A DNA stretch of 64,000 bases from Cupriavidus metallidurans CH34 (GTDB lineage Bacteria; Pseudomonadota; Gammaproteobacteria; Burkholderiales; Burkholderiaceae), in the NCBI RefSeq assembly GCF_000196015.1, contig NC_007973.1, positions 1,612,001 to 1,676,000 of the forward strand, written 5' to 3'. Positions 2,254 through 52,957 of this stretch are shown one piece after another (positions within the stretch are counted from its first letter, which is position 1; every line of letters starts with the position of its first letter). The translations under genes were made by a program, and so were the position numbers. The notes beneath the pieces were generated by a model, which was given only the letters and a program-made list of their open reading frames with translations, was not told where the DNA came from and made no database searches.

Positions 2254-3083
2254 AAGACCCGCAGGCAGCGTTCTACCTCGGCGGCGATGGGCTCGCGCAC
2301 CCCGGCGAGCAGGGCCGTGTAGCTCCTCGCCCCGGCGCGAGCGGCGGCGCGGATGGCGTCCCCGGCGGCGTCGGCCAGCGCGGTGTAGTAATTGATCTTG
2401 GCCACGCCGAAGGTGATGAGCTTGCGGAACTGGTCATCGGACAGGCCGGTGCCGCCATGGATGACGAGGGGCAGCCCCAGCGCGGCGTGGATGTCCTTGA
2501 GCCGGCCCCAGTCCAGCCCGGGTTTGTCCTTCATGCGGCCATGCACGGTGCCGACGGAGACGGCCAGGCAATCAACGCCGGTGCGTTCCACGAAGGCCTT
2601 GGCTTCCGCCACGGTGGTGTATTGGACCGGGCCGGGATGGCGCTCGGCATCTTCGCCCTCGACACCCGGCACGTAGCCCAGCTCGCCCTCGACGCAGACG
2701 CCGCAGGCGTGGGCCATCGCGGTCACGGCCCGGGTCGCGTCGATGTTGTCGCCGATATCCAGGTGCGAGGCATCCACCATCACTCCGTTGGCCCCGAGAC
2801 GAATGGCCCGGATGGCCGAATCGAGGCTCGCGCCGTGGTCGAGATGGATGGCCACCGGCACCTGGGCGCGCCGCGCCGCCGCTTCCACGGCGGGCATGGC
2901 CAGCTCGAGATCGAAGTGGCTGAAATGCGATTCGGCCAGGCTCAGGATCACCGGTGCGCGGGCGCGTTCCGCGCCGACGACGATGGCCTCCAGGAAATCC
3001 AGGCCAACCAGATCGAAGGCCCCCACCGCGTAACCGTGGGCATGGGCATGGTCGAGCATGTCCTTCATGTTGACCAGGGGCAT
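2223..3083 (-). pseudogene. fba: fba, 5' part of a split class II fructose-bisphosphate aldolase gene
   Basis: Class II (metal-dependent) aldolase of the ~280-aa KbaY/GatY/Fba type, which would condense triose phosphates to fructose (or sedoheptulose) bisphosphate in the CBB cycle. Visible features are AIHLDHGAS (zinc-ligand His), VEGELGY, GTVHG, VIHGGTG and a phosphate-site NY-containing stretch. The start at 3083 has a strong GGAGGA ribosome site at 3091-3096. Native sequence stops at 2254, where IS1071 copy A begins; the last nine codons of the open frame (GSPRFQCNK after Leu-Arg-Val-Leu) come from the IS1071 end. The missing 3' part lies at 52544-52957. The barrel is nearly complete, so the 286-aa chimera could retain some activity, but the native C-terminal domain is gone. 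Confidence 0.9.
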
Positions 3084-3097
3084 GGCGTTTTCCTCCC

Positions 3098-3146
3098 AAA
3101 AAAACGAAGGGCCGCCCCGAGTTTTTTTGTCCCCCTCGGGGGGCGG
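3098..3146 (-). terminator. Hairpin with T tract just upstream of fba (possible terminator or attenuator)
   Basis: On the minus strand a GC-rich stem (3135-3146 pairing with 3112-3121, with a small bulge) is followed by a run of seven T (about 3099-3105) immediately before the fba ribosome site. A second, perfect 9-bp dyad with a 3-base loop lies just upstream (GGAAACGGC 3145-3153 / GCCGTTTCC 3157-3165). It would separate fba from the upstream cbb genes. Confidence 0.5.
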
Positions 3147-3176
3147 AAACGGCCAAGCCGTTTCCTGGGGGCGCTC

Positions 3177-3440
3177 TTAACCGTCCTCGTCCTCGGGGGG
3201 CCACCAGCCGGCGGCACGGGCACGCGCCAAGGCTTCGGCGTAGATGCGTTGGTGGCGGGCGCGCAGGTCGTCCGGCAGCTGGCTGGGCAAGCCGCCCGAG
3301 GCGTCCCAGCGGGCACTGACCCGCTCGGCCAGGGTTTTGCAAGCGGCCAAGCCCCGAGCCGGCGCAGGTTTCGCTCTCCGGCGCCTGTGCGGTACTCGAA
3401 GACCTCGGCAATACGTCGCTGGATGATCTGGCCAGACTGG
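3177..3440 (-). pseudogene. Degraded second copy of the orf98-type gene
   Basis: Reading leftward, the frame ending at stop 3177 gives ...LAERVSARWDASGGLPSQLP and then a stretch ending PPEDEDG. It aligns with the C-terminal half of the 98-aa protein at 4384-4680 (EQVQVEWDKYSNLPSRLP..., ending ELGEDE). The upstream part, with ESETCAG matching ETEDCSG, is in another frame, so at least one frameshift separates the two parts, near 3350-3365. No good start codon is visible. This is a diverged paralogue that has decayed, and it shows that this small gene was once present twice in the operon. Confidence 0.6.
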
Positions 3441-3528
3441 CAGTTTCCGGAAATCAAGTTCGACCCTGATCGGCGGACGGTCCGTTCGGGACTCGCATCA
3501 CGCCCGTCCTTGATGCGCACGAGCGGCA

Positions 3529-3948
3529 TCAGGCGCCGCCTCCATGCCACAAGCGCAAGGCAGACACGTTGGTCGCGCGGAGATCTTCCAGCACGGCTAC
3601 TGCACCGGTGAAGTCCTCCCCGCGCGTCCAGGCATTGACGGTTACCAGCACTGGCAGTCCGGCACCACGTGCCGCACGCACGCCGTTCTTCGAATCCTCG
3701 ACGGCGAGGCAGCTTGCCGCAGGCAGTTGCATTTGCGTCATTCCTCAAGTGTAGATGTCCGGGGCGGGTTTTTTTTCGAGCGCCTGTTCGCCGGCGCCGA
3801 TGACCTCGAAGGTGTCAGGCGGCAAATCGGCCAGCGTGGTGGAAAGCAAGACAAATTCGCGAAACGTCGCGTTGAACGCCTGACGATGGACCTCCTCGGT
3901 ATCCGCGAGCGTGCCATCGACATCGAAGATCACCGCCTGGAGCGTCAT
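3529..3948 (-). pseudogene. cbbY: cbbY pseudogene 1 (internal deletion plus in-frame TGA)
   Basis: HAD-family phosphatase of the CbbY type (xylulose-1,5-bisphosphate phosphatase, which removes a RuBisCO inhibitor). The N-terminus has the nucleophile motif [22 protein letters not shown]. After about 32 residues roughly 110 codons are missing, and the frame resumes in the C-terminal core ([17 protein letters not shown]). A TGA at 3745-3747 then interrupts the same frame, which continues as LPAASCLAVEDSKNG, the HAD motif with the acidic pair. The cap domain and the stop make it non-functional. An intact cbbY is present at 27030-27848. Confidence 0.85.
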
Positions 3949-3993
3949 CGCGTCAGTCCGGCGTCAATCTGCGGCAGGTGTCCAGAGCCCTCG

Positions 3994-4368
3994 TCACAGG
4001 GTCTTGCGCACCGCATTGCGCAACCGTGCTTCCAGTTCCTCGGCCATCAGCAGCAGTGCCTTGTTGCGAACCTTGGCTGCGCCTTGGTGGTAATCACGCA
4101 CGGTGCAAACCACCGGCTCATGCAAGGCGGTACGGCCTTTGTCCTGAAAATCCGTCCAGGAGATGACAGGCATGTCGTACAGGCTGGAATCAACCAGCAC
4201 CCACTCCCCGTCGTCGAGCAGCATGGACATGGGCGGAAAATCTTCCAGACCGAAGCAGGTCTTCACCGGCTCGCGCATCCAGTAGCGCCGCCAAACGTTC
4301 CATACTGGTGCCGGGATGCTTGAGGAGTATTCATTCAGAGCGGGACAGTCGCGCAGACGCTCGTACAT
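3994..4368 (-). CDS. orf124, uncharacterised protein of the RuBisCO operon
   Basis: 124-aa soluble-looking protein, not recognised. It has no signal peptide or membrane segment. It contains an aromatic N-terminal half (SSIPAPVWNVWRRYWMREPV), a central CFGLEDFPPM and a charged helical C-terminus (AEELEARLRNAVRKTL). It lies 15 bp downstream of orf98 and after cbbO on the same strand, so it is very likely co-transcribed with cbbLSQO. The position suggests a role linked to form IA RuBisCO or its activase, but the sequence gives no direct evidence of function. Between it and the broken cbbY (3949-3993) there is only a short spacer. Confidence 0.65.
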   Translation of the reverse strand: MYERLRDCPALNEYSSSIPAPVWNVWRRYWMREPVKTCFGLEDFPPMSMLLDDGEWVLVDSSLYDMPVISWTDFQDKGRTALHEPVVCTVRDYHQGAAKVRNKALLLMAEELEARLRNAVRKTL

Positions 4369-4383
4369 TGTCGGCCGCTCTCC

Positions 4384-4680
4384 TCACTCATCCTCGCCCA
4401 GTTCCGGGTCCCAGCCCTTGGCGCGGGCAGTCTGAATGGCCCGGTCATAAATTTCGACATGCCGCTTGAGCAACTCCGGCGGCAGGCGGCTGGGCAGGTT
4501 GCTGTACTTGTCCCATTCCACCTGCACCTGTTCCATCAGGGCCTGCATGCGGCCGCCCTGCCAGCCGGAGCAATCCTCCGTCTCCGGTATCAGGCCGAAC
4601 AACCAGCCGTCGAGGACGATGCGGCCGAGTTGGGTGAGGCCGTGCTTGTCGCTGTATAAACCGGGGTATGTGTTTTCCAT
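4384..4680 (-). CDS. orf98, small uncharacterised protein next to cbbO
   Basis: 98-aa acidic protein, not recognised. It is hydrophilic apart from LDGWLFGLIPE, and the C-terminal half is a helical ELLKRHVEIYDRAIQTARAKGWDP stretch ending in acidic residues. It starts 8 bp after the cbbO stop, so it is translationally close to cbbO. A decayed paralogue lies at 3177-3440 in the same operon. Two copies in one RuBisCO operon argue for a real role with CbbO or CbbQ, but this is an inference from position. Confidence 0.65.
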   Translation of the reverse strand: MENTYPGLYSDKHGLTQLGRIVLDGWLFGLIPETEDCSGWQGGRMQALMEQVQVEWDKYSNLPSRLPPELLKRHVEIYDRAIQTARAKGWDPELGEDE

Positions 4681-4688
4681 GGTCTTTC

Positions 4689-7046
4689 CTATCGGGTAAG
4701 GCCGGCATACAGCAGCGGCAGTTTCTCGGGCAGGCGCTGGACATGATCCACCACCATGTAGTTCTTCTGGCCAAAAATTCGTGAGACGTAATTATCAGCG
4801 CGTGGGTCCAGGCTCATGCAGTAGGTGGTGACACCAAGTTTTGCCACCTCCTCCACAGCCTTCTTGGTGTCGTAGCGCAAGTATTGCGGGTCGCGCACAT
4901 CCACGTCGGCGGGTTCGCCGTCGGTAATGACGATCAGGAGTTTCTTGGCCGAACGCTGCAGTTGCAAATGATGGCCGGCATGTCGAATCGCTGCACCCAT
5001 CCGGGTAGACAGCTGCCCGGTCATCCCGGCGAGCCGGGACTTGGGTGTCTCGTCCCAATGCTGGTCGAAGTCCTTGAACCGGTAGTACTCGACATCGTGG
5101 CGTCCGTCCGAACAAAAGCCGTGGATGGCAAAGGGGTCGCCGACCTTGTTTATGGCGTCGGCCAGCAGCACGCAGGCCTGCTGGGTGAGCTCGCGCACCG
5201 AATATTCCTGGTCCTGCACTTTTTCGTTGGTCGATTCCGACAGATCGAGCAACACCAGGATCGAAAAGTCGCGGGTCTTGCGCACACTACGCATCATGAT
5301 GCGTGGATCGGGCTGGTTGCCGAGGCGGATGTCGGTAAGGCTGGAGATCGCTGCGTTGATGTCGATCTCGTCGCCGTCCTCGAGGCGGCGGATGCGCTGC
5401 ACACCCTGCGGCTGCATGGCGTCGAGCAGGAATTTCATGCGATGGATTTCGCGCTTGTACTGTGCGGTAATCGCCTCGATGATCTGCAGGTCGCCGGCCT
5501 TGGCACGCTTTTCCAGCACGGTTGCCCAGGCCGGGCGCTCCAACTGGATCTGGTAATCCCATTCGGAATAATGGAAGGGGTCGGAGACCGGCTCCTTGCC
5601 TTCAAGTTCGTTGAAGCTCTTGCCGCCACTCTCGTCACCGATGTTTTCATACGGGAACAACTCGGTGCCGAGCACCCAGATTTCCTCGGCATCGTCGCCG
5701 GCCGTCTCGACATCGATCTCGTTGGCCATTTCCATCACGCTGACGTACTTGCGCACCTGTTTGATGGACTCGTAGCCGGCACTGGCTGCCTTGTTGAAAT
5801 CGAATTCCTCGAACTCCCAGAAGTAGCGGTTGTCGTCGCGGTAGGGGGCGGTGAGCAAATCGGTACGTGGATTGAACGGAATCCGTTTCTGGCCGAAGCT
5901 GTGCGCAAGCTGGACGCCAATATCCCATGAAGTCAGGTTGCTATCGAGCTTCTCCTGCGCGAGCGCGAACAGCGCACGGGCCTCGACGATCCACGGGTCC
6001 TTGTCCTTGTATGACTCATCAAGCAGGGCGCGTGCAAGACGGTTGAGATAATCGCCCATGCTGCCATTCATCTCGGGCGTGGCCGTGTGCAGCTTGCTCC
6101 AGAGTTGCTTGAGGCCGGGAAAGCGCCGGATGGAGAGAGTCTCCACGCGCGCATCCTCGATGACGCTGATCACCGCGATCTGCATGGGATTGAGCGCCTC
6201 GGCGGAAATAGGCAGCTTCGTCTCGACCACGTGGGCGGCGCAATGGGCGGCCGTGGCGCGATATAGCTCCAGACCGGACACTGGCTCCTGACCTTCGACC
6301 GTGAAATCGTCGAACGCATCCGGCACGTGCAGCAGGTAGTCCTCGATGTAAGGGCGGTAGCCTTCGCGGGTCTCGAAGTCGCCTGACGTGGGGCGCATGA
6401 AGAAGTCGCGGGCCCACAGTGCGCGCAGATACATGTTGATGCGGCGCTGCACATCTACCAGCAGGGTGCCCTTGCGCTCCTTCTGCAGCATCGCCATCGA
6501 CTCCTTGGAATCAAGGCTGAAATAGCGGATCTGTTCTTCGTAGTTGGTGCGGTGTGCATGGGCGCCCCAGAGCGCCCAACGGCGCAGGCCACCGAGGGTG
6601 AGGTGCTGGAACAGGACTTCCAGCTTGTCCAGCATCGGCCGCACGCCACGCGGCGCTTGCGCGATCAGGGTATTGATGAACTGCAGGTACTTGATGAAAA
6701 GTTCGGCATCACCCAGCCGATTGGCGGCGATGGCCGAAGTGGCGAGCAGCAGCTCGATCACCGTCCCCGAGGTTCGCGAGGCCAGTTCGAGGGAGGCAGT
6801 AGCCAGGTCGCCGACAACGTCCTCGCCGACCTCCTTGGCGACCATCGGCGCTTTCTCGATCCAGGTTTCCACCAGCGAATCACCCTTGCCGAGTCCGCGA
6901 ATGGCGGCCGCACCCTTCAGGTAGTTGTCCAGACCACGCGGCGAGAACACCTTGGTCGCTTCGTGCCAATTGGCCTGCAACGCATTCTGGCTGTGCGGCG
7001 ACAAGTCCTCCAGCAATTCGGCATAATCAGCAAGATTGAATGACAT
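4689..7046 (-). CDS. cbbO: CbbO, RuBisCO activase adaptor with VWA domain
   Basis: 785-aa CbbO, the adaptor of the CbbQO-type RuBisCO activase. CbbO carries a C-terminal von Willebrand A domain that docks on RuBisCO while a CbbQ hexamer remodels it to release inhibitory sugar phosphates. The VWA domain begins near residue 585 (SILVLLDLSESTNEK, with the MIDAS Asp-x-Ser-x-Ser) and continues through ITDGEPADVDV. The long helical N-terminal part is typical of the family. The start at 7046 is 12 bp after the cbbQ stop, so the two are coupled. It sits downstream of form IA cbbLS, the usual partner. Length is normal for the family. Confidence 0.95.
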   Translation of the reverse strand: MSFNLADYAELLEDLSPHSQNALQANWHEATKVFSPRGLDNYLKGAAAIRGLGKGDSLVETWIEKAPMVAKEVGEDVVGDLATASLELASRTSGTVIELLLATSAIAANRLGDAELFIKYLQFINTLIAQAPRGVRPMLDKLEVLFQHLTLGGLRRWALWGAHAHRTNYEEQIRYFSLDSKESMAMLQKERKGTLLVDVQRRINMYLRALWARDFFMRPTSGDFETREGYRPYIEDYLLHVPDAFDDFTVEGQEPVSGLELYRATAAHCAAHVVETKLPISAEALNPMQIAVISVIEDARVETLSIRRFPGLKQLWSKLHTATPEMNGSMGDYLNRLARALLDESYKDKDPWIVEARALFALAQEKLDSNLTSWDIGVQLAHSFGQKRIPFNPRTDLLTAPYRDDNRYFWEFEEFDFNKAASAGYESIKQVRKYVSVMEMANEIDVETAGDDAEEIWVLGTELFPYENIGDESGGKSFNELEGKEPVSDPFHYSEWDYQIQLERPAWATVLEKRAKAGDLQIIEAITAQYKREIHRMKFLLDAMQPQGVQRIRRLEDGDEIDINAAISSLTDIRLGNQPDPRIMMRSVRKTRDFSILVLLDLSESTNEKVQDQEYSVRELTQQACVLLADAINKVGDPFAIHGFCSDGRHDVEYYRFKDFDQHWDETPKSRLAGMTGQLSTRMGAAIRHAGHHLQLQRSAKKLLIVITDGEPADVDVRDPQYLRYDTKKAVEEVAKLGVTTYCMSLDPRADNYVSRIFGQKNYMVVDHVQRLPEKLPLLYAGLTR

Positions 7047-7058
7047 GGCAGGCTGCCT

Positions 7059-7862
7059 TTAGAAGAAGGTGGTTACCGCAGCATCGAGCGCATCGCGCAT
7101 GTCGGGATCGTCGGTGATCGGGCGGACCAGCGCGACGCGGCAGGCGGCCTGCGGGTTGACACCCTTGGCAATAAGCGAGCCGGCGTAGATCAGCATGCGG
7201 GTGGACAGGCCTTCGTCGAGGCCGTGCCCCTTGAGGTTGCGCGAGCGTTCGGCAATCGAAACCAGCTTGCCGGCGATGTCGGCGTTGGCCCCCGATTCAT
7301 GCGCCACGACCTCGGTTTCGATGGCGTGCTCGGGATAGGTGAAGTCGAGACCGCCGAAACGCTGCTTGGTCGACTGCTTCAGATCCTTCATCAGGGACTG
7401 GTAGCCAGGGTTGTAGGAAATCACGATCTGGAAATCGGGATGGGCATTGACCAGTTCGCCCTTCTTTTCCAGCGGCAGCACTCGACGGTTGTCGGTCAGC
7501 GGGTGGATCACCACGGTGGTGTCCTGGCGCGCCTCGACCACTTCGTCGAGGTAGCAGATCGCACCATGCCGTGCGGCGATGGCCAGCGGGCCATCCTGCC
7601 ACTCGGTGCCCTGGGCTGAGAGCAGGAAGCGGCCGACCAGGTCAGAGGCGGTCATGTCCTCGTTGCAGGCGACGGTAATCAGCGGCTTGTTCAGCTTGTG
7701 TGCCATGTATTCGACAAAGCGCGTCTTGCCGCAGCCGGTCGGTCCCTTGAGCATCATCGGCATGCGCACGGAGTAGGCGGCTTCGAACAACTCGACCTCG
7801 TCGGCGACGGCGCGATAGTAGGGTTCCTTGGTGATGCGGTATTGATCGACGATATTGCTCAT
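7059..7862 (-). CDS. cbbQ: CbbQ, MoxR-type AAA+ RuBisCO activase ATPase
   Basis: 267-aa AAA+ ATPase of the CbbQ/NorQ group. Walker A is GPTGCGKT near residues 41-48, and Walker B is ICYLDEV near 102. Conserved family stretches are [13 protein letters not shown] and SYNPGYQ. Start: the ATG at 7862 is chosen over an in-frame upstream start because it has an AAGGAG site at 7870-7875 and gives the canonical N-terminus [10 protein letters not shown]. It forms the motor of the CbbQO activase. It is preceded by a terminator hairpin behind cbbS, so its transcription may be lower than that of cbbLS. Confidence 0.95.
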
Positions 7863-7943
7863 GCGGGGGCTCCTTGATGAGAACGCGGATTTATCCACGA
7901 ATGACGCGAACTCGACGGCGCACCATTCGTTGGCAAACTCCTG

Positions 7944-7986
7944 GAAAACAAAAAGCCCCCGATTGCGCTTGCCGCGCAGCGGGGGC
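7944..7986 (-). terminator. Rho-independent terminator or attenuator between cbbS and cbbQ
   Basis: On the minus strand a GCCCCCG/CGGGGGC stem (arms about 7980-7986 and 7955-7961) with an internal GC-rich loop is followed directly by TTTTTGTTTT (7944-7954). It lies 25 bp behind the cbbS stop, between cbbS and cbbQ. It would let cbbLS be made in excess over the activase genes by partial read-through. Confidence 0.8.
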
Positions 7987-8011
7987 CAGATACTGCCAAC
8001 CGCCGAGCGAC

Positions 8012-8368
8012 TTAAACCGTCTTGCCGCGGTAAACCACCATGGCCGCGCCTTGCGACTGCTTGAAGTTGTCGTAGCCGACCAGGCGCACGTGGTTGTTGG
8101 GGTTGGCCTTGTGGCAGGCTTTGGCCTCGGCCAGAACGCGATCGACGTCGGTTTCACCGAACATCGGCAACTTCCACATGTACCAGTAGGAGTCCATCAG
8201 GTACTCAGGCTCGATATGCTCGATAGCCGGGTTCCAGCCCTTCTTCACCAGATACTCGACCTGCCTCTTGATGCTGGCCGCGTCCATCGCGGGCAGGTAG
8301 GAAAAAGTTTCGAACTTCCGGCTGGCGGGGTCGGAAAGGCGGGAGTTGTAATCCATTACGTCAGACAT
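8012..8368 (-). CDS. cbbS: RuBisCO small subunit, form IA
   Basis: 118-aa small subunit of ribulose-1,5-bisphosphate carboxylase/oxygenase. The start at 8368 ([26 protein letters not shown]) has an AAAGGA site 6 bp upstream. The sequence has the proteobacterial form IA pattern: ETFSYLPAM, the [15 protein letters not shown] segment and [12 protein letters not shown], and no C-terminal beta-hairpin extension of the red type. It lies 77 bp downstream of cbbL and pairs with it in the L8S8 enzyme. Confidence 0.97.
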
Positions 8369-8445
8369 TTCATTTCCTTTCAAATTGGGTCCTGATCCCG
8401 GGTCGCCAATTGCGGCTCCGGGGTGTCATGCGCTCGGCGCAAGAA

Positions 8446-10873: not shown

Positions 10874-10998
10874 AGGTCAGGAGCCTTTCTGAAAGCGGGG
10901 TATCCGGATGAGTGCGGTTGCTTAGCGGCGCCATGGGCTGCGAGGAATTTCCAGGTGGAGAGATGATGGTGCGCTTTTTGCGGAGCACGGAGGCGCAG

Positions 10999-12341
10999 GG
11001 GACTGTCGGAGATTTCGTGTTTAAGGCATAACATGCTCCCAAGGAGAATGTATGCCTCGCAAACCGAAAGCCCCGCTGGCAGAGCTGCCGGCGATCCCCG
11101 CCGAGCTGCTTGAGCAGTTCGGCAATGGCCCGATGACGGCCGAAGCCATCCATGCCGCGACCCTGGCACTCAAGAAAGCGCTGATCGAGCGAGCCCTGGG
11201 CGGCGAGATGAATCATCATCTCGGCTATTCACCGGGCGCAGCCAAACCAGCCGCCGTCACCAACCAGCGCAACGGTAAAGGTGCGAAGACGGTTCTGACC
11301 GAAGATGGCCCAATCCGAATCGAGGTGCCTCGCGACCGTGACGGCAGCTTCGAGCCGTTGCTGATTCCAAAGCACGAACGGCGCTTCACGGGCTTCGATG
11401 ACAAGATCGTCGCCATGTACGCTCGGGGCATGACCGTGCGCGAGATTCAGGGTTTCCTGCAGGAGCAATACGGCACCGAGGTCTCGCCCGATTTCATCAG
11501 TTCGGTTACCGACGAGGTCATGGCCGAAGTCACCGCCTGGCAAGCCAGGCCGCTTGAGCAGATGTATCCGGTCGTGTTCTTCGACGCACTGCGAGTGAAG
11601 ATCCGTGAGGATGCCGTCGTACGCAACAAGGCGGTCTATCTGGCGCTGGGCGTTCTGCCCGACGGCACGCGCGAGATTCTGGGGCTGTGGATCGAGAACA
11701 CCGAAGGCGCCAAGTTCTGGATGAAGGTTTTCAACGATCTCAAGACGCGCGGCGTCAACGACATTCTGATCGCAGTGACCGACGGCCTCAAGGGCATGCC
11801 GGAGGCGCTGAGCGCAGTATTCCCGGCGACCACGCTGCAAACCTGCATCGTCCATCTGATCCGCAACAGCCTGAATTACGCTAGCTGGAAAGATCGCAAA
11901 GCGCTAGCCGCCGCGATCCGGCCGATCTACACCGCGCCGAGTGCGGAAGCCGCCGAAGCTGAGCTCAATACGTTTGCCGCGGGACCATGGGGGCAGAAAT
12001 TCCCGACGGTCAGCGCTTCATGGCGTAACGCCTGGGACCGCGTGATCCCGTTCTTCGCATTTCCGCCGGCGGTGCGCAGGGTGATCTACACGACAAATGC
12101 CATAGAAAATATCAATTCGCAGCTACGCAAGATCATCAAGACCCGAGGCCACTTCCCGAGCGACGAGGCAGCGACTAAGCTTATCTGGCTGGCGCTACGC
12201 AATATCACCTCTGACTGGGGTCGTGCCGCAAAAGATTGGAAGGACGCAATGAACCAATTTGCTATCCTCTACCAGGATCGATTCGTTCGACCATCCGTGT
12301 GATTCTCAACCCGCCTTGAACACGGAAATTCTGACACCCCC
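10999..12341 (+). mobile_element. IS256-family insertion sequence (1343 bp)
   Basis: The ends are ~29-bp imperfect inverted repeats: left GGGACTGTCGGAG... and right (reverse complement) GGGGGTGTCAGAA..., both ending in AAGGC; by eye 22 of 29 positions match. It contains a single intact transposase gene and is flanked by the 8-bp duplication AGGCGCAG. It interrupts the IS1595-family transposase gene. Everything needed for transposition appears present. Confidence 0.9.
11052..12302 (+). CDS. IS256-family (mutator-type) transposase
   Basis: 416-aa mutator-type DDE transposase. The catalytic residues appear as VVFFDALRV (first Asp), AVTDGLKGMPEAL (second Asp) and TTNAIENINSQLRK (Glu), the hallmark C-terminal motif of the family. 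CIVHLIRNSL is the conserved C/D-x2-H segment between them. The start at 11052 follows an AAGGAG site at 11041-11046. Full length with no disruption, so probably active. Confidence 0.95.
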   Translation: MPRKPKAPLAELPAIPAELLEQFGNGPMTAEAIHAATLALKKALIERALGGEMNHHLGYSPGAAKPAAVTNQRNGKGAKTVLTEDGPIRIEVPRDRDGSFEPLLIPKHERRFTGFDDKIVAMYARGMTVREIQGFLQEQYGTEVSPDFISSVTDEVMAEVTAWQARPLEQMYPVVFFDALRVKIREDAVVRNKAVYLALGVLPDGTREILGLWIENTEGAKFWMKVFNDLKTRGVNDILIAVTDGLKGMPEALSAVFPATTLQTCIVHLIRNSLNYASWKDRKALAAAIRPIYTAPSAEAAEAELNTFAAGPWGQKFPTVSASWRNAWDRVIPFFAFPPAVRRVIYTTNAIENINSQLRKIIKTRGHFPSDEAATKLIWLALRNITSDWGRAAKDWKDAMNQFAILYQDRFVRPSV

Positions 12342-13244: not shown

Positions 13245-13447
13245 GGGGTCTCCTCGTTTTCAGTGCAATAAGTGACGGTACGAAAAGCTAGCACTGGCGC
13301 GGAGGTGGTGTTGGTAGATCGTTGATTTCATTGACTTTCCTGTTCACTTTCAAATCTGCGATTCGTGGCGTCAAACCGTGGTCGGTTTCATCCATTGGTG
13401 CCAGTTATCGATGCATTTGGCCGCGAAGGCAGGATTTGGTCAGCATA
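13245..13447 (-). mobile_element. IS1071 right-end fragment (203 bp)
   Basis: Begins with GGGGTCTCC and carries the right-end type sequence, the same as the first 203 bp of copy B up to GTCAGCATA, where copy B starts afresh at 13448 in the same orientation. It is a partial tandem duplicate of the IS1071 end, left by a second IS1071 inserting into, or recombining with, an earlier one. Confidence 0.9.
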
Positions 13448-16651: not shown

Positions 16652-17315
16652 TGGAGGTGTTGATGGCGAACTCCTGGGTCGCCGCGGGGATGCGCAGCAT
16701 TGGATGGGTGAGGATGAACTCGCCGACATCCCGGTCGAGGGTGAAGCCGTGGGTGCCCTGACCGGTGGTGAGCACCAGCATGGTCGCCGGCCCGTAGAGG
16801 GCGTAACCGGCGCAGACCTGCCCGGCGCCCGCCTGCAGGAAGTGTTCGAGGGTCGGCGGCACCTCCGGATCGGGCGAGCGCAGCACCGAGAAGATGGCGC
16901 CCACCGAGATGTTGGCGTCGATGTTGGAAGAGCCGTCCAGGGGATCGAAGACCAGCAGGTACTTGCCTCGCGGGAAGGCCGCGGGGATCGGGTAGATCGT
17001 GTCCATCTCCTCGGAGGCGAGGGCGACTAGGTGGCCACCCCTCTCGGTGGCGTGGACGAGGATCGCGTTGCTGATCACGTCGAGCTTCTTCTGCACCTCG
17101 CCCTGAACGTTCTCGTGCTCCGCCGAGCCGAGCACGCCCGCCAGGGCGCCGCGGCTGGCCGCGGTGGCGATCACCTTGCAGGCGGTGGCGATCACGTTGA
17201 GCAGTCCGGAAACTCCCCGGTGGCCGCCGGGTGGGCGCGCTGGGACTGGATGATGAACTGGGTCAGGGTGATGCCGGTGGGGGTTATGACCCTCTCCTCG
17301 TCGGGGATCGTCGGT
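16652..17315 (-). pseudogene. cbbF: fbp remnant (class I fructose-1,6-bisphosphatase), frameshifted and cut by IS1071 B
   Basis: Class I FBPase. Most of the N-terminal two-thirds is readable: [14 protein letters not shown], then [47 protein letters not shown], and the metal-site motif [14 protein letters not shown] one-base loss near 17200-17210 (between ATGEF and SGLLN) shifts the frame. The gene ends at 16652 after [10 protein letters not shown], where IS1071 begins, removing the C-terminal third. No convincing start codon remains. An intact cbbF lies at 20041-21138, so this is a second, dead copy. Confidence 0.88.
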
Positions 17316-17348
17316 GTGGCAAAGGTGGCCGCTTGGCCGGAGTTCCAG

Positions 17349-17377
17349 AAAAACCCCCTCCGCTACAGCGGAGGGGG
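17349..17377 (-). terminator. Perfect-stem terminator upstream of fbp remnant
   Basis: CCCCCTCCGC (17354-17363) and GCGGAGGGGG (17368-17377) form a perfect 10-bp stem with a 4-base loop. On the minus strand it is followed by TTTTT (17349-17353). It would stop leftward transcripts just before the fbp remnant. Confidence 0.75.
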
Positions 17378-17568
17378 TGAAGGCACTTGCCGAGGAGAGT
17401 CGATGCAAGTGCGAGGGAGACCGGGCCAAGGGACTACCGTGCAAGGCACTATCGGGACGACAGCTTAGATGGAGGCAATGCTTAAAACAATTTGTAAATA
17501 CTTTATCGGCAGTTTAGTTTGTCTTAATCAACCCGGCGCCCGGGCGCCATGGCGGAATCGACGGGGCC

Positions 17569-41910: not shown

Positions 41911-41912
<2 letters not shown>

Positions 41913-43902: not shown

Positions 43903-43935
43903 CCTCACGTCAGGACAAGGAGACAGAATCGAATC

Positions 43936-44916: not shown

Positions 44917-44929
44917 TCGCCGAGCCCGC

Positions 44930-47287
44930 ATGCTGATGCCGCGAACCCAGCGCCAGCCCCGGCCCGTCCGCATCCGCATCCGCGTGCGCGGCGTGGTGCA
45001 GGGCGTGGGCTTCCGGCCCTTCGTTTATCGCCTGGCGCAGGAACTGGGCGTCGCCGGCTGGGTGCGCAACGACGGCGCCGGCGTGGACATCGAGGTCCAG
45101 GGGAGCGCCGCGGCCATCGCCGAGCTGCGCGAGCGGCTGCGCCGCGACGCGCCGCCCCTGGCGCGAGTGGATGAGATCGGCGAGGAACGCTGCGCGGTAC
45201 AAGCCGACGCCGACGGCTTTGCCATCCTCGAGAGCAACCGTTCCGATGCCGCCGTGCACACCGCCATCGGCCACGACACGGCGGTGTGCGCCGACTGCCT
45301 GGCGGAGCTTTTCGACCCCGCGGACCGGCGCTACCGTTACGCCTTCATCAACTGCACCCAGTGCGGCCCGCGCTACACGCTGACGCGCGCGCTGCCCTAC
45401 GACCGCGCCACCACCAGCATGGCGCCGTTCCCGCAGTGCCCGCCCTGTCTGGGCGAGTACCAAGCGCCGGAGCATCGCCGCTTCCACGCCGAGCCCAACG
45501 CCTGTCCGGATTGCGGCCCCAGCTTGATGCTGCTCGATGCGCAGGGCATGCCGGTGCCGGGCGTAGACCCGATTGCCGGAACGGTGGCGCGCGTGCTGCG
45601 CGGCGAGATCGTCGCCATCAAGGGCCTGGGCGGCTTCCATCTCGCCTGTGACGCGCGTAATGCCGAGGCGGTGGCGCGGCTGCGCGACCGCAAGCAGCGC
45701 GAGGAGAAGCCCTTCGCGGTGATGGTCGCCAACCCGGTGACGGCGGCGCAGTGGGGCGATGTCTGCAGCGGCGCAGAGATCCTGCTCGCGGCGCCGGAGC
45801 GCCCCATCGTGCTGCTGCGCAAGCAGCGCATCGTCGACGAGCAGCTGCACGGCGTGGCGCCGGGACTCGCCTGGCTGGGCGTGATGTTGCCCCATACGCC
45901 GCTGCAGTACCTGCTGTTCCACGAGGCGGCCGGCCGGCCCGACGGGCTCGCCTGGCTCACGCAGCCGCAGCCGCTGGTGCTGGTGATGACCAGCGCCAAC
46001 CCCGGCGGCGAGCCGCTGGTCATCCGAAACCATGTGGCGCTGCAACGCCTCGCCGGCATCGCCGATGCCTTCCTCCTTCACGACCGCGAGATCCTGGTGC
46101 GCTGTGATGATTCTGTGGTGAGAGCCGAACCCACCGATCACCCATCGCAGCAATTCATTCGTCGTGCTCGGGGTTACATACCGCGTGCCATCAAGCTCGC
46201 CCGCAGCGGTCCGTCGGTGCTGGCGCTGGGCGGCTACTTCAAGAACACCGTGTGCCTGACCCGCGGTGACGAAGCCTTCGTTTCCCAGCATGTGGGCGAT
46301 CTCGACAACGCCGCCACCTGTGAGGCGATGATCGAGGCGGTGGCCCATCTGCGGCAGGTGCTGGACATCCAGCCGCGGCTCGTCGCCCACGACCTGCATC
46401 CGGAATTCTTCAGCACGCGCCACGGGGCGGAACTGGCGGCGGAATGGGCCGTGCCCGCCGTCGCCGTGCAGCACCATCACGCCCACATCGCTGCGGTGCT
46501 GGCCGAGCACCGCTCGGACGGGCCCGCCATCGGCTTGGCGCTGGACGGCGTCGGCCTGGGCAATGATGGCCAAGCGTGGGGTGGCGAACTGCTGCTGGTG
46601 GACGGCGGCTCCTGCAAACGCCTCGGTCACTTGCGCCGGCTGCCGCTGCCCGGCGGCGACCGCGCGGCGCGCGAGCCTTGGCGCATGGCTGCCGCCGCGC
46701 TGCACCTGATGGGGCGTGGCGAGGAGATCGCAGAGCGCTTTCCGCAGCAGCCGGGGGCGAAGATGGTGAACCGCATGCTGGCCCAGCGGTTGAACGCGCC
46801 GCTCACTTCCAGCATGGGCCGCTGGTTCGACGCCGCCGCCGGCCTGCTGGGCACGCGCGAGACCATGGCCTACGAGGGCCAGGCGGCGATGCTGCTGGAA
46901 GGGCTGGCCGAGCGCTGGGGCGAGGGGCTGGCGCTGCGCGATGCCTGGCGCATCGGCGCGGACAACGTCCTGGATCTGCTGCCGCTGCTGGAGGCGCTGT
47001 CCGCCGAAGCAAACCCGGCGCGCGGTGCGGCGCAATTCCATGCTACGCTGGTGGCGGCGCTGGAAGCTTGGGCCGTCGCGGCGGTCCAGGACACCGGCGT
47101 GCGCACCGTCGCCTTCGGCGGCGGCTGCTTCCTCAACCACATCCTCGTCCGCAACCTGGGTCGACGCCTGGCGGCACGCGGCCTGACCGTGCTGACGGCG
47201 CAGCAGCTGCCGTCCAATGACGGCGGCATCGCCCTCGGTCAGGCCTGGGTGGCGCTGCGGTGGGCGCCTCAACTTATGGAAGAGTAG
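44930..47287 (+). CDS. hypF: HypF, carbamoyltransferase for the cyanide ligands
   Basis: 785-aa HypF. Order: acylphosphatase-like domain ([18 protein letters not shown], ~20-105), two Zn-finger units ([11 protein letters not shown]...CTQCGPRYT and CPPCLGEY...CPDCGPS), YrdC-like domain (~205-390), and a Kae1-like carbamoyltransferase domain with [16 protein letters not shown] and [11 protein letters not shown]. It makes thiocarbamate on HypE from carbamoyl phosphate, giving the CN ligands. ATG 44930 or 44936. Confidence 0.97.
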
Positions 47288-47291
47288 AAAC

Positions 47292-47528
47292 ATGTGCCTT
47301 GCTATACCCGCACGCATCGCGGAGAAACTCGACAACGACATGGCCCTCATCGACCTGGGCGGCGTGCGCAAGGAGATCTCGCTGGCGCTGGTGGATGACG
47401 TCGCCGTGGGCGACTACGTCATCGTGCACGTGGGCTACGCACTGACGAAGCTGGATCCCGAAGAGGCGGAACGCACCCTGAAGCTGTTCGCCGAAGCCGG
47501 CATGGTGCAGACGGAGGGTGCGTCATGA
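47292..47528 (+). CDS. hypC: HypC, Fe(CN)2CO carrier chaperone
   Basis: 78-aa HypC/HupF/HoxL-family protein. It starts MCLAIPARI, with the essential Cys2 that carries the Fe ligand complex together with HypD. Ends four bases into hypD (ATGA overlap). Confidence 0.97.
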
Positions 47529-48667
47529 AATACGTGGACGAATTCCGGGACGGCGAGCTGGCCCGTACCCTGGCGGCGAAGATCGCCCGCGACGCCGACT
47601 CCGGGCGCAGCTACAGTTTCATGGAGTTCTGCGGCGGCCACACCCACGCCATCTCCCGCTACGGTGTCAGCGATCTGTTGCCCGCCAACGTGCGCATGAT
47701 CCACGGCCCCGGCTGCCCGGTGTGCGTGCTGCCCATCGGCCGCATCGATCTCGCCATCAAGCTCGCGTTGGAGCGTGGTGTGATCCTCTGCTCCTATGGC
47801 GACACGCTGCGCATCCCCGCCTCCGAGAGCCTGTCGCTGCTCAAGGCCAAGGCCCGCGGTGCGGACATCCGCATGGTCTACTCGGCGGCCGACGCGCTGG
47901 CCATCGCCCAGCAGAATCCCCAGCGCGAAGTGGTGTTTTTCGCCATCGGCTTCGAGACCACCACGCCGCCCACCGCGCTGGTGATCAAGCAGGCCGAGGC
48001 GGCCCGCGTCACCAACTTCAGTGTGCTGTGCAACCACGTGCTGACGCCTTCGGCCATCATCACCATCCTCGAGTCGCCGGAGGTGCGCAAGCTGGGTACC
48101 GTGCCGCTGGACGGCTTCGTCGGCCCCGCCCATGTCAGCACCGTGATCGGCAGTCGGCCCTACGAATTCTTCGCCGAGGAGTACCGCAAGCCGGTGGTGA
48201 TCGCCGGCTTCGAGCCGCTGGACGTGATGCAGGCCATCCTCATGCTGGTGACGCAGGTCAACGAGGGCAGAGCCGAGGTGGAGAATGAATTCACTCGCGC
48301 CGTCACCCGAGACGGCAACCAGAAGGCCCAGGCCTTGGTGTCGGAAGTCTTCGAGCTGCGCTGCTCCTTCGAATGGCGCGGCCTGGGCGAGGTGCCCTAC
48401 AGCGCCCTGCGCATCCGCGCCAGCTACCGCCTGTTCGACGCCGAGGCCCGCTTCGGCCTCGCCTACCGGCCGGTGCCCGACAACAAGGCCTGCGAATGCG
48501 GCGCCATCCTGCGCGGCGTGAAGAAGCCCACCGACTGCAAGCTCTTCGCCACCGCGTGCACGCCGGAGAATCCGATGGGCTCCTGCATGGTGTCGAGCGA
48601 AGGGGCGTGCGCGGCGCATTACAGCTACGGGCGGTTCAAGGACATCGAAGTGGTGGTGGCAGCTTGA
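47525..48667 (+). CDS. hypD: HypD, scaffold for Fe(CN)2CO assembly
   Basis: 380-aa HypD. Motifs [28 protein letters not shown] and [10 protein letters not shown] line the active site. The C-terminal [38 protein letters not shown] holds the [4Fe-4S] Cys. HypCD receive CN from HypE and CO on the iron. Intact. Confidence 0.97.
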
Positions 48668-48675
48668 TGAATTTA

Positions 48676-48729
48676 ACCGCAGAGACGCAGAGGCGCAGAG
48701 TTTTCTCCGTGTCTCGGCGCCTCTGCGGT
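48676..48729. repeat. Imperfect palindrome with GCAGAG units between hypD and hypE
   Basis: The spacer starts ACCGCAGAG and ends CCTCTGCGGT, which pair; in between are GACGCAGAGGCGCAGAG and GTCTCGGCGCC. A related palindrome sits on the other side of hypE (49805-49871). This type of small dispersed palindrome, built from GCAGAGACGC-like words, looks like a MITE or REP-like element. Confidence 0.6.
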
Positions 48730-48740
48730 GAGGATCGACG

Positions 48741-49790
48741 ATGAGCGAAGTGAAGAAAGGCTATATCCGGCCGCTGGATTTCAAGCACGGCCGCATTGAC
48801 ATGAGCCACGGCGGCGGCGGGCGCGCCATGGCGCAGTTGATCGACGAGCTGTTCCTGCGCGCTTTCGACAATGAGTGGCTGCGCCAGTTGAACGATCAGG
48901 CCTGTTTCGCCGTCACCACGGGGCGCATGGTGATGGCCACTGATGCCCACGTGGTGTCGCCGCTGTTCTTCCCCGGCGGCGACATCGGCGGCCTGTCGGT
49001 GCATGGCACCATCAACGACGTGGCCATGGCCGGCGCCCGGCCGCTCTACCTCGCCGCCAGCTTCGTCATCGAGGAGGGTTTTCCGCTGGCGGACCTGCGG
49101 CGCATCGTGGACTCCATGGCCCAGGCGTCGCAGGAAGCGCGGGTGCCCATCATCACCGGTGATACCAAGGTCGTCGAGCAGGGCAAGGGCGACGGTGTTT
49201 TCATCACTACGACCGGCGTCGGCGTCGTGCCCGAGGGCGTGAGTATCAGCGGCGAGCGGGCCCGGCCGGGCGACCGCATCATCGTCTCCGGTGCCATCGG
49301 CGACCACGGCATGGCCATCATGTCGCAGCGGGAGAACCTGCGCTTCGACACCGAGATCGTCTCCGACACCGCGGCCCTGCACGGCCTGGTGACGGCGATG
49401 GTGATGGCGGTGCCCGACATCCACGTGCTGCGCGATCCCACCCGCGGCGGCGTCGCCACCACGCTGAACGAGATCGCCCGGCAGGCCGGCGTGGGCATGA
49501 TGCTGGACGAGGCGGCGATTCCGGTGAATCCGCAGGTGGCGGCCGCCTGCGAATTCCTTGGCCTGGATCCGCTTTACGTCGCCAACGAGGGCAAGCTCGT
49601 CGCCATCTGCGCGGCGGGCGATGCAGATCGACTGCTGGAAGTGATGCGTGCCCATCCCCTGGGGGCCCGCGCCGCCGTCATCGGCGAAGTCACCGAAGAT
49701 CCTCATCACTTCGTGCAGATGAAGACCGCCTTCGGCGGACGGCGCATCGTCGATTGGCTCTCCGGTGAGCAGTTGCCGAGAATATGTTGA
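48741..49790 (+). CDS. hypE: HypE, thiocyanate-forming maturation protein
   Basis: 349-aa HypE of the PurM-like ATPase family. N-terminal DMSHGGGGRAMAQLIDELF, VVSPLFFPGGDIGGLSVHGTINDVAMAGA and the GDHGMAIM loop bind ATP. It ends in PRIC, with the C-terminal Cys that receives the carbamoyl group from HypF and becomes thiocyanate. Intact. Confidence 0.97.
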   Translation: MSEVKKGYIRPLDFKHGRIDMSHGGGGRAMAQLIDELFLRAFDNEWLRQLNDQACFAVTTGRMVMATDAHVVSPLFFPGGDIGGLSVHGTINDVAMAGARPLYLAASFVIEEGFPLADLRRIVDSMAQASQEARVPIITGDTKVVEQGKGDGVFITTTGVGVVPEGVSISGERARPGDRIIVSGAIGDHGMAIMSQRENLRFDTEIVSDTAALHGLVTAMVMAVPDIHVLRDPTRGGVATTLNEIARQAGVGMMLDEAAIPVNPQVAAACEFLGLDPLYVANEGKLVAICAAGDADRLLEVMRAHPLGARAAVIGEVTEDPHHFVQMKTAFGGRRIVDWLSGEQLPRIC

Positions 49791-49804
49791 GAGGTTGATT
49801 TTGA

Positions 49805-49871
49805 AACGCAGAGACGCCGAGACGCGGAGGAATTCAGAACAGGTTTTCTCGGCGCCTCGGCGCCTCGGCGT
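49805..49871. repeat. Second GCAGAG/CGAGGC-type palindrome between hypE and hypX
   Basis: ACGCAGAGACGCCGAGACGCGGAGG on the left side pairs imperfectly with GGCGCCTCGGCGCCTCGGCGT on the right. It shares the CGCAGAGACGC words with the repeat at 48676-48729, so hypE is bracketed by two copies of the same repeat family. Confidence 0.55.
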
Positions 49872-49888
49872 TTAATGCAGCGTGATTC

Positions 49889-51628
49889 ATGCGAATACTC
49901 TTCCTCACCCACAGCTTCAACAACCTCACCCAGCGCCTCTACGTGGAACTCACCGGGCGCGGGCACGAGGTGTCCATCGAGTTCGACATCGCCGACAGCG
50001 TGGCCGAGGAGGCCGTCGCGCTGTTCCGGCCGGATCTCATCGTGGCGCCCTATCTGCGCCGGGCGATACCCGAGTCCATCTGGCGCCAGCACGTTTGCCT
50101 GGTGGTGCATCCGGGCATCGTCGGCGATCGCGGTCCCTCGGCGCTGGACTGGACGATCCAGGAGGGTGTGGATGAGTGGGGCGTCACGGTGCTGCAGGCC
50201 AACGGCGAGATGGATGCCGGCGACATCTGGGCCACCGAGACCTTTCCCATGTGCCTGGCGAAGAAGAGCAGCCTCTACCGCAACGAGGTGACGGCGGCGG
50301 CGACCCGCGCGGTGCTGGCGGCGGTCGGGCGCTACGCCGTGTATCGTTCCGGCGCATTCCGCCCGCGGCCGCTGGACTATGCGGATCCAAACGTGCGCGG
50401 CCGGCTGCGTCCGCTCATGAAGCAGGAAGACCGTAGCATCGACTGGCAGCGCGAGAGCACCGAGCAGGTGTTGCGCAAGCTCCACGCGGCGGACGGTTTC
50501 CCCGGCGTGCGCGACGAACTGTTCGGCGTGCCCTGTCATCTCTTCGACGCCCATGCGGAGTACCGCCTGCGGGGCGAGCCGGGCGCGCTGCTGGGGCGGC
50601 GTGAGGGTGCAGTGCTGCGCGCCACGGTGGATGGCGCGGTGTGGATCGGCCATGCGAAGCGCGCCGACCGCGATGATGCGCTGAAGCTGCCTGCCACCCT
50701 GGCCTTCGCCGAGGAGACGAAGGATCTGCCCGAGTACACCGTGCCCCTGTGGCGCGAAGAGGAGGGAGACTGGAGCCCGCTGCGCTACCATGAGGCCGGC
50801 GGCGTCGGCTACCTGCATTTCGATTTCTACAACGGCGCCATGGGCACGACGCAATGCCAGCGCCTGCTCGCCGCCTACGAGTTCGCGCGCAGCCGGTCCA
50901 CGAAGGTCATCGTGCTCCTGGGCGGTGCGGACTTCTGGTCCAACGGGATCCACCTCAATCTCATCGAGGCGGCGGACAGCGCCGCCGATGAGTCCTGGCG
51001 CAACATCAACGCCATCGACGACGTGGCCCGTGCCGTCATCGAGACCGGCGGCCAGCTCACCGTCGCCGCGCTGCGCGGCAACGCCGGCGCCGGCGGCGCC
51101 TTCCTGGCGCTGGCGGCGGACGAAGTGTGGGCGCGCGAGGCGGCGATCCTCAACCCCCACTACAAGAACATGGGTAACCTCTACGGCTCCGAGTACTGGA
51201 CCTACCTGCTGCCCAGGCGGGTGGGCATGGCGCGCGCCCGCGCCATCATGCAGAACCGCCTGCCCCTCGGCGCCGCGGAAGCGGCGCGGGAAGGCGTGGT
51301 GGATGCCTGCCTGTCCGGCGACGTGGCGGCCTTCACCGTGCAGGTGGTGGCCCGTGCCGAAGCGCTGGCCGCTGCGGTGGACCTGGCACAGCGGCTCGAG
51401 GAGAAGCGCGCGCGGCGCGTGCGCGACGAGGCCGTGAAGCCGCTGGCCGCCTATCGCGACGAAGAGCTGGAACACATGCGGCGCAACTTCTACGGCTTCG
51501 ATCCCAGCTATCACGTGGCGCGCTATCATTTCGTGCGCCGCACGCCGCACTCGTGGACGCCGCGGCATCTGGCCGCACACCGCGACATCGATTGGGGGAC
51601 AGGCCGCCTGAAGGCCGTGAAGCCATGA
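49889..51628 (+). CDS. hypX: HypX/HoxX, CO-ligand synthesis enzyme for aerobic NiFe maturation
   Basis: 579-aa two-domain protein. The N-terminal formyl-THF-hydrolase/transferase-like half (~1-280) has ILFLTHSFNNLTQRLYVEL, HPGIVGDRGPSALDW and GEMDAGDIWAT. The C-terminal enoyl-CoA hydratase/crotonase-like half (~290-540) has FYNGAMGTTQC, LLGGADFWSNGIHLNLIE and ALRGNAGAGGAFLALAADEVWARE. HypX makes CO from formyl-THF, so NiFe hydrogenase can mature in air. Its presence fits an aerobic knallgas lifestyle. The stop overlaps hoxA. Confidence 0.95.
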   Translation: MRILFLTHSFNNLTQRLYVELTGRGHEVSIEFDIADSVAEEAVALFRPDLIVAPYLRRAIPESIWRQHVCLVVHPGIVGDRGPSALDWTIQEGVDEWGVTVLQANGEMDAGDIWATETFPMCLAKKSSLYRNEVTAAATRAVLAAVGRYAVYRSGAFRPRPLDYADPNVRGRLRPLMKQEDRSIDWQRESTEQVLRKLHAADGFPGVRDELFGVPCHLFDAHAEYRLRGEPGALLGRREGAVLRATVDGAVWIGHAKRADRDDALKLPATLAFAEETKDLPEYTVPLWREEEGDWSPLRYHEAGGVGYLHFDFYNGAMGTTQCQRLLAAYEFARSRSTKVIVLLGGADFWSNGIHLNLIEAADSAADESWRNINAIDDVARAVIETGGQLTVAALRGNAGAGGAFLALAADEVWAREAAILNPHYKNMGNLYGSEYWTYLLPRRVGMARARAIMQNRLPLGAAEAAREGVVDACLSGDVAAFTVQVVARAEALAAAVDLAQRLEEKRARRVRDEAVKPLAAYRDEELEHMRRNFYGFDPSYHVARYHFVRRTPHSWTPRHLAAHRDIDWGTGRLKAVKP

Positions 51629-52069
51629 CGACAAAAACCAGGTTGCCCACCGTGCTGGTGGTGGATGACGAGGTGCGCTCCCAAGAGGCGCTGCGCCGCA
51701 CGCTGGAGGAGGAATTCGAGGTGCTCACCGCCTCCGGCGCGGGGGAGGCGCGAGGCATCATGGAGCGCGACTTCGTGCAGCTGCTGCTCTGCGACCAGCG
51801 CATGCCCGGCATGTCCGGCGTGGAGTTCCTCAAGCAGGTGCGCAGCCAGTGGCCGGACGTGGTGCGGATGATCATCTCCGGCTACACGGACTCCAAAGAC
51901 ATCATTGCCGGCATCAATGACGCTGGCATCTACCAGTACATCCTCAAGCCGTGGCAGCCGGAGCAGCTACTGCTCACCCTGCACAACGCCGCCGAGCTTT
52001 ACCGGCTGCAGAGCGAGAACCAGCGCCTGGCGCTGGAGCTGCGCACCAGCGAGCCGGTGCTGAAGAAGC
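51625..52069 (+). pseudogene. hoxA: hoxA, truncated NtrC-type response regulator (receiver only)
   Basis: About 148 native codons: receiver domain with VLVVDDEVRSQEALRRTL, LLLCDQRMPGMSG (phospho-acceptor Asp), IISGYTDSKD and ILKPWQPEQL, then linker ENQRLALELRTSEPVLKKR. HoxA is ~480 aa with a sigma-54-binding AAA+ domain and a Fis-type HTH; both are lost. At about 52070 the DNA changes to cbbY in the opposite direction, so the rest of the open frame is antisense cbbY. The truncated protein cannot activate sigma-54 promoters. Confidence 0.88.
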
Positions 52070-52547
52070 GCGTCCACGTTGGCGCGGCTGGTGGTGGTGA
52101 CAATGGCCGTTTTCAGGCCGGCGGCCTTCGCTTCGCCCAGCTGGCGCGCCACGCCGGGACGAATCTCCACGAGGCCGGCGATCACGGCCTCGGTGTAGCG
52201 GCGCGTCTTGTCCTTGTGCAGGGCAGCGACGAACCCGTCCACGTCGCGTGCGGCGAGCAGGTCCGGGTGGTCCTCGGCCAGGAAACGCCGGATGCGCTCC
52301 TTGCCGCCGGAGACCTTGAGCAGAACGCGATAACGCTCCAGGCTCCAGTGCCCCAGGTTTGCACAGCCCCCGGCTCGGGAATCCCACCCGAGCCGTTCCA
52401 CGAGGGGGCCAGGTCGTTCTTGGGACGGTCCGGCGAACGACTTGCCGGGCCCATCGCGGCGAAGGTGGCATTGAACGCCTGGCGGTGTAGCTGCTCGGTT
52501 TCGGCGAGGGTGCCGTCCACGTCAAAAAGCAGCGCCTTGAGCGTCAT
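52070..52547 (-). pseudogene. cbbY: cbbY pseudogene 2 (insertion, frameshift and 3' truncation)
   Basis: The start ATG 52547 overlaps the fba stop. The N-terminus is [33 protein letters not shown]. Then ~95 bp of unrelated sequence is inserted (about 52355-52450), after which the cap domain resumes in another frame: WSLERYRVLLKVSGGKERIRRFLAEDHPDLL...LKTAIVTTTSRANVDA. It stops at the junction with hoxA at ~52070, losing the C-terminal third. It was the gene following fba in the original leftward operon. Confidence 0.85.
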
Positions 52548-52957
52548 GACGTGACGCCTTCGGTGACCGGAGCGCACGACAGCGGCAGCGTCGAGGCGCC
52601 GGTGACCCGGTCGGCGACGCGGAAATCGCTGGTCAGGCGGTCCGCCGCCGCCGGGCGGAACAGATGGTCGGCGAAGGCGACGTGGGTAGGGTGTTGCTTG
52701 TAGCTCTCGATGACCTCTGGCGCGGCGAAGCGGATCAGCCAGCAGTGACGGTACCGCGCGCTCTGGTCGGCGACGCTGCCGACGGTGACTTCGCGCACCC
52801 CGGGGATTTCCGACAACACCCGCTGCCCTTCCGCCATCAGGGCGCGCAGCCGGACCTCGTCGTGGTTGGGGGCGTTGTAGAGCACCACGTGCTCCACGTT
52901 GATCCAGGGGCGGCAACGATCCAGCACCTCCGCCGCCCGTCCGGCGGCGCCGAAGAC
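52544..52957 (-). pseudogene. fba: fba, 3' part: missing C-terminal domain (Dabb-like) of the split aldolase
   Basis: Reading leftward from the IS1071 copy C edge: GTCTT (AAGAC complement) CGGCGCC... gives VFGAAGRAAEVLDRCRPWINVEHVVLYNAPNHDEVRLRALMAEG...VREVTVGSVADQSARYRHCWLIRFAAPEVIESYKQHPTHVAFADHLFRPAA..., ending TEGVTS. This is a dimeric alpha-beta barrel (Dabb) type domain. Joined to the part at 2254-3083 with one AAGAC removed, it gives a continuous 412-aa protein (413 codons). No start of its own. Confidence 0.9.

Follow-up and report, generated by a model that had tools for sequence, protein, structure and literature searches.

An aldolase gene split over both ends of an IS1071-bounded autotrophy island marks a circularly permuted locus in Cupriavidus metallidurans CH34

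The autotrophy island of Cupriavidus metallidurans CH34 raises the question of how the two parts of a single aldolase gene, fba, came to lie at opposite ends of its cargo, each directly beside a copy of IS1071. We analysed a stretch of 64,000 nucleotides (contig NC_007973.1, positions 1,612,001 to 1,676,000, forward strand; hereafter the window) which, from its gene content and paired IS1071 copies, fits CMGI-3, published as ICETn4371 6055 (PMC2864759, PMC3384475). CMGI-3 has been described as two IS1071-flanked cassettes, excision of Rmet_1491-1544 via IS1071 has been proposed (PMC2864759), and mutants have been described (PMC2864759, PMC3384475). Tn4371-family ICE modules flank the cargo, the repA/parA/parB and relaxase side on the left (DUF3363) and the traG-trb side on the right (T4SS-DNA_transf and T2SSE), and plasmid records are annotated with the same Tn4371-type modules. 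To the left of the island lies an AraC-type reading frame (Pfam); the right-hand frame 56188-56568 has no Pfam match, and an Rfam search of the window gave no matches. The main features of the island are as follows.

1..2253 (whole element -950..2253), plus strand: IS1071 copy A, with the same sequence as B and C; it probably corresponds to the exterior IS1071 Rmet_1491 of PMC2864759
2254..13245: island half 1, fba 5′ part with the cbbO, Q, S, L side, equal to A. ruhlandii contig 96313-105953 save for one inserted IS
4689-7046, minus strand: cbbO, named after the original prediction and PMC2864759
7059-7898, minus strand: cbbQ, named likewise
8012-8383, minus strand: cbbS, named likewise
8446-9942, minus strand: cbbL (NCBIfam)
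11000..12341, plus strand: Mutator-type IS of 1,342 bp (Pfam Transposase_mut), 9-bp overlap, missing in both A. ruhlandii and the Dechloromonas contig
13448-16651, minus strand: IS1071 copy B, joining both outer island ends, with Tn3-family transposase NF033527
16652..52957: island half 2, cbb operon, soluble hydrogenase hox, hyp and fba 3′ part, equal to A. ruhlandii contig 59499-96317; hypF and hypD named by NCBIfam, its other genes after PMC2864759
38718..39815, minus strand: IS of 1,098 bp with rve and HTH_38 domains, 8-bp overlap, not present in A. ruhlandii or Halomonas sp. A11-A
52958-56161, plus strand: IS1071 copy C, matching A and B in sequence, probably the exterior IS1071 Rmet_1544 of PMC2864759

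The three IS1071 copies, each of 3,204 bp and with inverted ends of 106-108 nt (94%), are mutually identical over their full length; A and C stand in direct orientation and bound the cargo, and B is inverted to both. The transposase of copy B scores 911.7 bits against NF033527 (transpos_Tn3, NCBIfam; cut-off 500), and the name IS1071 itself follows the original prediction and PMC2864759 rather than a comparison with a reference IS1071. The 171-kb replicon of CH34 (C2 21468-28172, L091) holds a fourth IS1071, split by other DNA and missing its last 21 bp. This replicon is presumably pMOL28.

The original prediction held that the frames abutting copies A and C are pieces of one gene, and its coordinates were confirmed, with one piece running from 3083 to 2254 and the other ending at 52544, both on the minus strand.

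2254..3083, minus strand: fba 5′ part (aldolase domain), 830 nt, adjoining copy A
2254..2258: AAGAC, one half of the target duplication, directly beside the end of copy A
52544..52957, minus strand: fba 3′ part (Dabb domain), 409 nt together with the duplicated AAGAC, adjoining copy C
52953..52957: AAGAC, other half of the target duplication, directly beside the end of copy C

AAGAC at both inner edges is the 5-bp target duplication, and AAGAC occurs just once at the corresponding point of the uninterrupted A. ruhlandii gene. With one AAGAC removed, the pieces join into 1,239 nt, that is 412 amino acids plus a stop codon, without an internal stop; when overlaps of 0-9 bases were dropped in ten trials, the frame was kept free of internal stops in three (2, 5 and 8 bases). 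The fba stop overlaps the cbbY start by ATGA, as predicted, at 52544-52547. In the joined protein a Dabb domain follows a class II aldolase domain (F_bP_aldolase 4-282, Dabb 296-388; Pfam), and the joint falls near residue 277, right at the end of the aldolase domain. That the two halves might be separate complete genes in relatives, which would have overturned the one-gene reading, was dropped, since all 8 aligned database proteins continue as one chain over the joint and carry both domains; this alignment has 11 hand-chosen rows, 8 of them drawn from 120 listed proteins and the rest being the uninterrupted gene and both window pieces. The splitting of fba may, judging from sequence, cost CH34 little, since the 5′ frame continues into IS1071 to give a 286-aa product that retains 274 of 277 aldolase profile positions, and since a second class II aldolase (27383-28945) lies within the island. 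In the genome paper Rmet_1492 is listed as an aldolase (PMC2864759). Table 5 of PMC8299993 gives "2 SNPs" in Rmet_1492, probably the fba 5′ piece at 2254-3083, for a survivor that is described as lacking the region; perhaps these reflect mapping over a new IS1071 joint, or else the deletion ends elsewhere.

An uninterrupted aldolase-Dabb gene was sought by scanning the 412-aa protein over a genome collection in which each of 84,980 species is represented once, using six short peptide patterns followed by tblastn, which returned 17 candidate stretches and, from these, eight loci. Residues 1-412 are matched in L006 and L007, 1-393 in L009, 1-390 in L011 and 1-391 in L012; L010 covers 94-412, L008 1-279 and L013 330-412. 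The intact gene that the original prediction called for is present in Achromobacter ruhlandii LMG 1866 (L006), with 412 of 412 residues identical. The joined 1,239 nt occur there letter for letter, the alignment crosses the joint without a gap, and the A. ruhlandii LMG 1866 genome gave no match to IS1071. One IS1071 insertion split an intact aldolase-Dabb gene of an A. ruhlandii-type autotrophy locus.

We then aligned 180 kb of the A. ruhlandii contig to the window. The 46.5-kb A. ruhlandii locus is unpermuted and falls into five colinear blocks, all on one strand, listed here in the plus order of A. ruhlandii (Ar).

Ar 59499-81564, window 16652-38717: 8 mismatches in 22,066 bases
Ar 81557-84647, window 39816-42905: 3 mismatches and 1 gap, outside the 41,759-base count
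Ar 86259-96317, window 42899-52957: 4 mismatches in 10,052 bases
Ar 96313-105058, window 2254-10999: no mismatches in 8,746 bases
Ar 105050-105953, window 12342-13245: 1 mismatch in 895 bases

In total, 13 mismatches separate CH34 from A. ruhlandii over the 41,759 gap-free bases compared, 1 in 9,641 in half 1 and 12 in 32,118 in the counted parts of half 2. The blocks are interrupted by the two CH34 insertion sequences of 1,342 bp and 1,098 bp and, on the A. ruhlandii side, by 1.6 kb of inserted DNA with a 7-bp overlap. As the blocks are colinear in rotated order, the CH34 island is a rotated locus and not a scatter of fragments; it is almost certainly, from sequence comparison, a circular permutation of an A. 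ruhlandii-type locus, opened at AAGAC in fba and closed at copy B. Beyond the shared part, the A. ruhlandii locus runs on into a further [NiFe] hydrogenase (L039:5954-15600, Pfam), which was not found in CH34.

An apparent permutation could also arise in assembly, had the identical 3.2-kb repeats led to misplacement of the halves and were the true order unpermuted. Short reads cannot discriminate here, since the unpermuted arrangement has the same IS1071-flank joints, but the CH34 libraries had 3-, 8- and 40-kb inserts, the larger of which span 3.2 kb (PMC2864759), and we regard this explanation as very improbable.

Which joint is the cut and which the closure follows from what each retains: fba keeps both of its sides, and the outer sides are lost at copy B. 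Two features meet there.

13245..13447, minus strand: IS1071 right-end remnant of 203 bp, joined directly to copy B
16652..17444 (frame 16605-17444), minus strand: fructose-bisphosphatase gene (fbp), truncated by copy B

The A. ruhlandii fbp is open over 411 aa (59056-60291) and has both FBPase Pfam domains, and the part missing at copy B finds matches of at most 76% elsewhere in CH34. The genome paper counts three FBP genes (PMC2864759), of which the truncated fbp is probably one. The 9.6 kb of A. ruhlandii to the right of the island end gave a single 25-bp match in CH34; the 10.5 kb to the left gave 20 matches without a true counterpart, 16 of them at 67-76% (paralogues, including 12 copies of one repeat) and 4 of 25-102 bp at 74-100%. 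No 5-bp target duplication is present at the edges of copy B. Since a 203-bp IS1071 end separates half 1 from copy B, two IS1071 ends took part in the closure, which came about either by nested insertion followed by recombination or by an IS1071-driven adjacent deletion.

The joint in fba recurs in a second genus. A Dechloromonas MAG contig of 9,828 bp (L008) carries half 1 at 99.98-100%, without the 1,342-bp IS, and shares with CH34 the fba/AAGAC/IS1071 joint, orientation included, yet it continues past base 13245 as A. ruhlandii does. Thus, in this lineage the fba insertion is present without trimming at 13245, and insertion preceded trimming there. In Halomonas sp. A11-A (25.9-kb contig; L013 1-1740, L090) the stretch from hox through hyp to fba 3′ is found at 99.9% in the A. 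ruhlandii order, with fba interrupted by other DNA at window position 52741. We infer from these near-identities that the autotrophy locus has probably spread recently.

The Dechloromonas contig also bears on whether the halves arrived separately, as two IS1071-bounded cassettes (one cbb, the other hyp/hox) that came to lie head to tail by chance. Such an origin would accord with the two IS1071-flanked cassettes of PMC2864759 and with a MAG in which half 1 and its IS1071 joint are present and a search of window 22917-42905 and about 47.8-52.96 kb gave no near-identical half 2, but the MAG bin may simply miss a second contig. Moreover, the halves bear matching AAGAC motifs and complementary pieces of one gene, both match one contiguous locus at about 99.97%, and they share a common IS1071 closure. 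Separate arrival is accordingly quite improbable, and the two published cassettes become one history, with an uncut near-identical locus, an intermediate joint in a third genus and the permuted form in the model strain.

How, then, did the rotated locus enter the ICE? The original prediction had IS1071 inserting in fba on a circular DNA, which then recombined with a resident IS1071 of the ICE. The single insertion and the permutation relative to an intact locus hold; the crossing of a circle with a resident IS1071 is not singled out, since two inversions give the same order. In our model of IS1071 recombination, the blocks could undergo inversion, excision and integration. The model has six connected states, and a circle plus one resident IS1071 would yield the observed order in one step, whereas an unpermuted composite would need two (two inversions, or excision and re-entry). 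Since the states interconvert, gene order alone does not tell the entry point of the circle.

The sequence of events that we favour would be the following. After the insertion in fba, further IS1071 copies would have landed in fbp on one side and beside base 13245 on the other; recombination between those copies would have released a circle with the fba copy and one closing copy; and this circle would have entered the Tn4371-type ICE by recombination of its fba copy with an IS1071 already there, which would leave fba split over both island ends. We consider it somewhat more probable than otherwise that circle entry via the fba copy at a resident IS1071 explains the order. The published loss of the region, ascribed to IS1071-mediated excision (PMC2864759, PMC8299993), counts in its favour. 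Counting against it are the size of the deletion reported in two survivors (~60 kb of hox/cbb; PMC8299993), as compared with 53,908 bp for recombination of A with C, the Dechloromonas MAG with half 1 only in the parts searched, and the uneven raw mismatch counts of the two halves. This route also rests on an assumed resident IS1071. The outer edges of A and C lack a target duplication, the flanking TACTA and ACTTA being unmatched, and so fit neither a newly formed cointegrate nor a plain insertion of a resident copy with its duplication. A Tn3-type cointegrate of the circle into the ICE was dropped, as no matching 5-bp duplication lies outside A and C (unless later deleted).

The same mismatch of TACTA and ACTTA is the reason that we do not file the island as an IS1071 composite transposon moved as a unit, and it bears on the inversion route, by which an unpermuted IS1071-bounded block with an inverted third IS1071 in fba entered the ICE, and two inversions (B with C, A with B) then produced the present order. 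Copy B does lie in the opposite orientation to A and C, the three copies agree in all of their 3,204 bp, the state search contains two-inversion paths that would lead from the unpermuted composite to the observed order, and deletion and inversion of an IS1071-flanked locus form the title of a paper on Comamonas sp. JS46. A composite transposing as a unit should, however, leave an outer 5-bp duplication, and two extra events would be required after entry. We therefore hold inversion of an unpermuted block to be possible but doubtful, and favour circle entry over it, with modest confidence.

The circle that we propose resembles a known kind of mobile element. IS26-type translocatable units are circles with one IS that enter beside a resident IS; circle entry beside a resident IS is the likeness, whereas IS1071 is a Tn3-family element and the CH34 circle is only proposed. 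In other IS1071-bounded accessory blocks, identical IS1071 copies likewise bound accessory metabolic genes, and loss between IS1071 copies has been reported for CH34 and others (PMC6210171). CH34 differs from these in that a third copy splits one gene across the outer ends, the cargo is rotated and there is no outer target duplication. Tentatively, the island may still be a live rotating unit: A and C would release a circle that reunites fba as one locus holding a single IS1071, inversions at B would shuffle the halves among four linear orders, and the circles would carry growth on H2/CO2 to any genome or ICE that holds an IS1071. The split gene is a marker that separates rotation from simple capture and is usable for other IS1071 cargo, and the history set out here offers a concrete way to test whether an entire autotrophy programme can move as an IS1071 circle. 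In the accessible portions of the literature searched on CH34, CMGI-3/Tn4371, IS1071 rearrangements and the A. ruhlandii hydrogenase, we found no description of the split fba, of the permuted order or of the locus in A. ruhlandii.

Relatives and vacant sites were sought further afield. Among plasmid records, 401 match the joined aldolase, with none covering 80% and all below 60% identity; near-DNA searches with 2254-10999, 16652-38717 and 39816-52957 returned 7, 67 and 91 plasmid records, respectively, none at 90% or above, the largest match being 87% to hox/hyp of C. necator H16. Among viral contigs one stretch fits a pattern and none encodes a relative. At the family level, 183 of 398 genomes match at 1e-3, and, CH34 aside, the longest among the matches listed shows 67% over 1.2 kb; at the class level 38 of 369 genomes match at 1e-50, of which CH34 reaches 100% and none of the remaining 37 exceeds 77%. 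The left edge of the ICE without the island is found in no plasmid record, and the 4 matching genomes among 399 of the order are CH34 itself and three with 31-52 bases; the right edge is matched in three plasmid records, each over 59 bp only. Neither a vacant ICE site nor one with a resident IS1071 was found in the plasmid records or the 399 order genomes. The sequences just outside A and C (L002:18350-19049 and window 56162-56720) have no plasmid match longer than 59 bp and are perhaps remnants of older ICE cargo.

The comparison with A. ruhlandii also bears on the genes next to fba. In the published view of CMGI-3, with its two cassettes, the hyp genes (hyp2) are a reverse duplication of the CMGI-2 set, hyp1 (PMC2864759, PMC3384475); here the island appears as one permuted locus common to A. 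ruhlandii. The only long matches of hyp2 (43500-51600) elsewhere in CH34 lie at C3 1401177-1405722, which we take as the CMGI-2 hyp set, with 73-77% identity over four stretches. Set against the 4 mismatches that separate the hyp2-bearing block from A. ruhlandii, this leaves the published origin unsupported, and hyp2 was more likely acquired with the island. For hoxA, counted among the intact hox genes in the genome paper (PMC2864759), the frame (51628-52554) has a receiver domain only, its second part running antisense through the cbbY start, and the gene looks truncated; A. ruhlandii is near-identical over the region 51628-52554. Two remnants of cbbY-like HAD hydrolases, at 3529-3948 and 51967-52547, each have a damaged frame.
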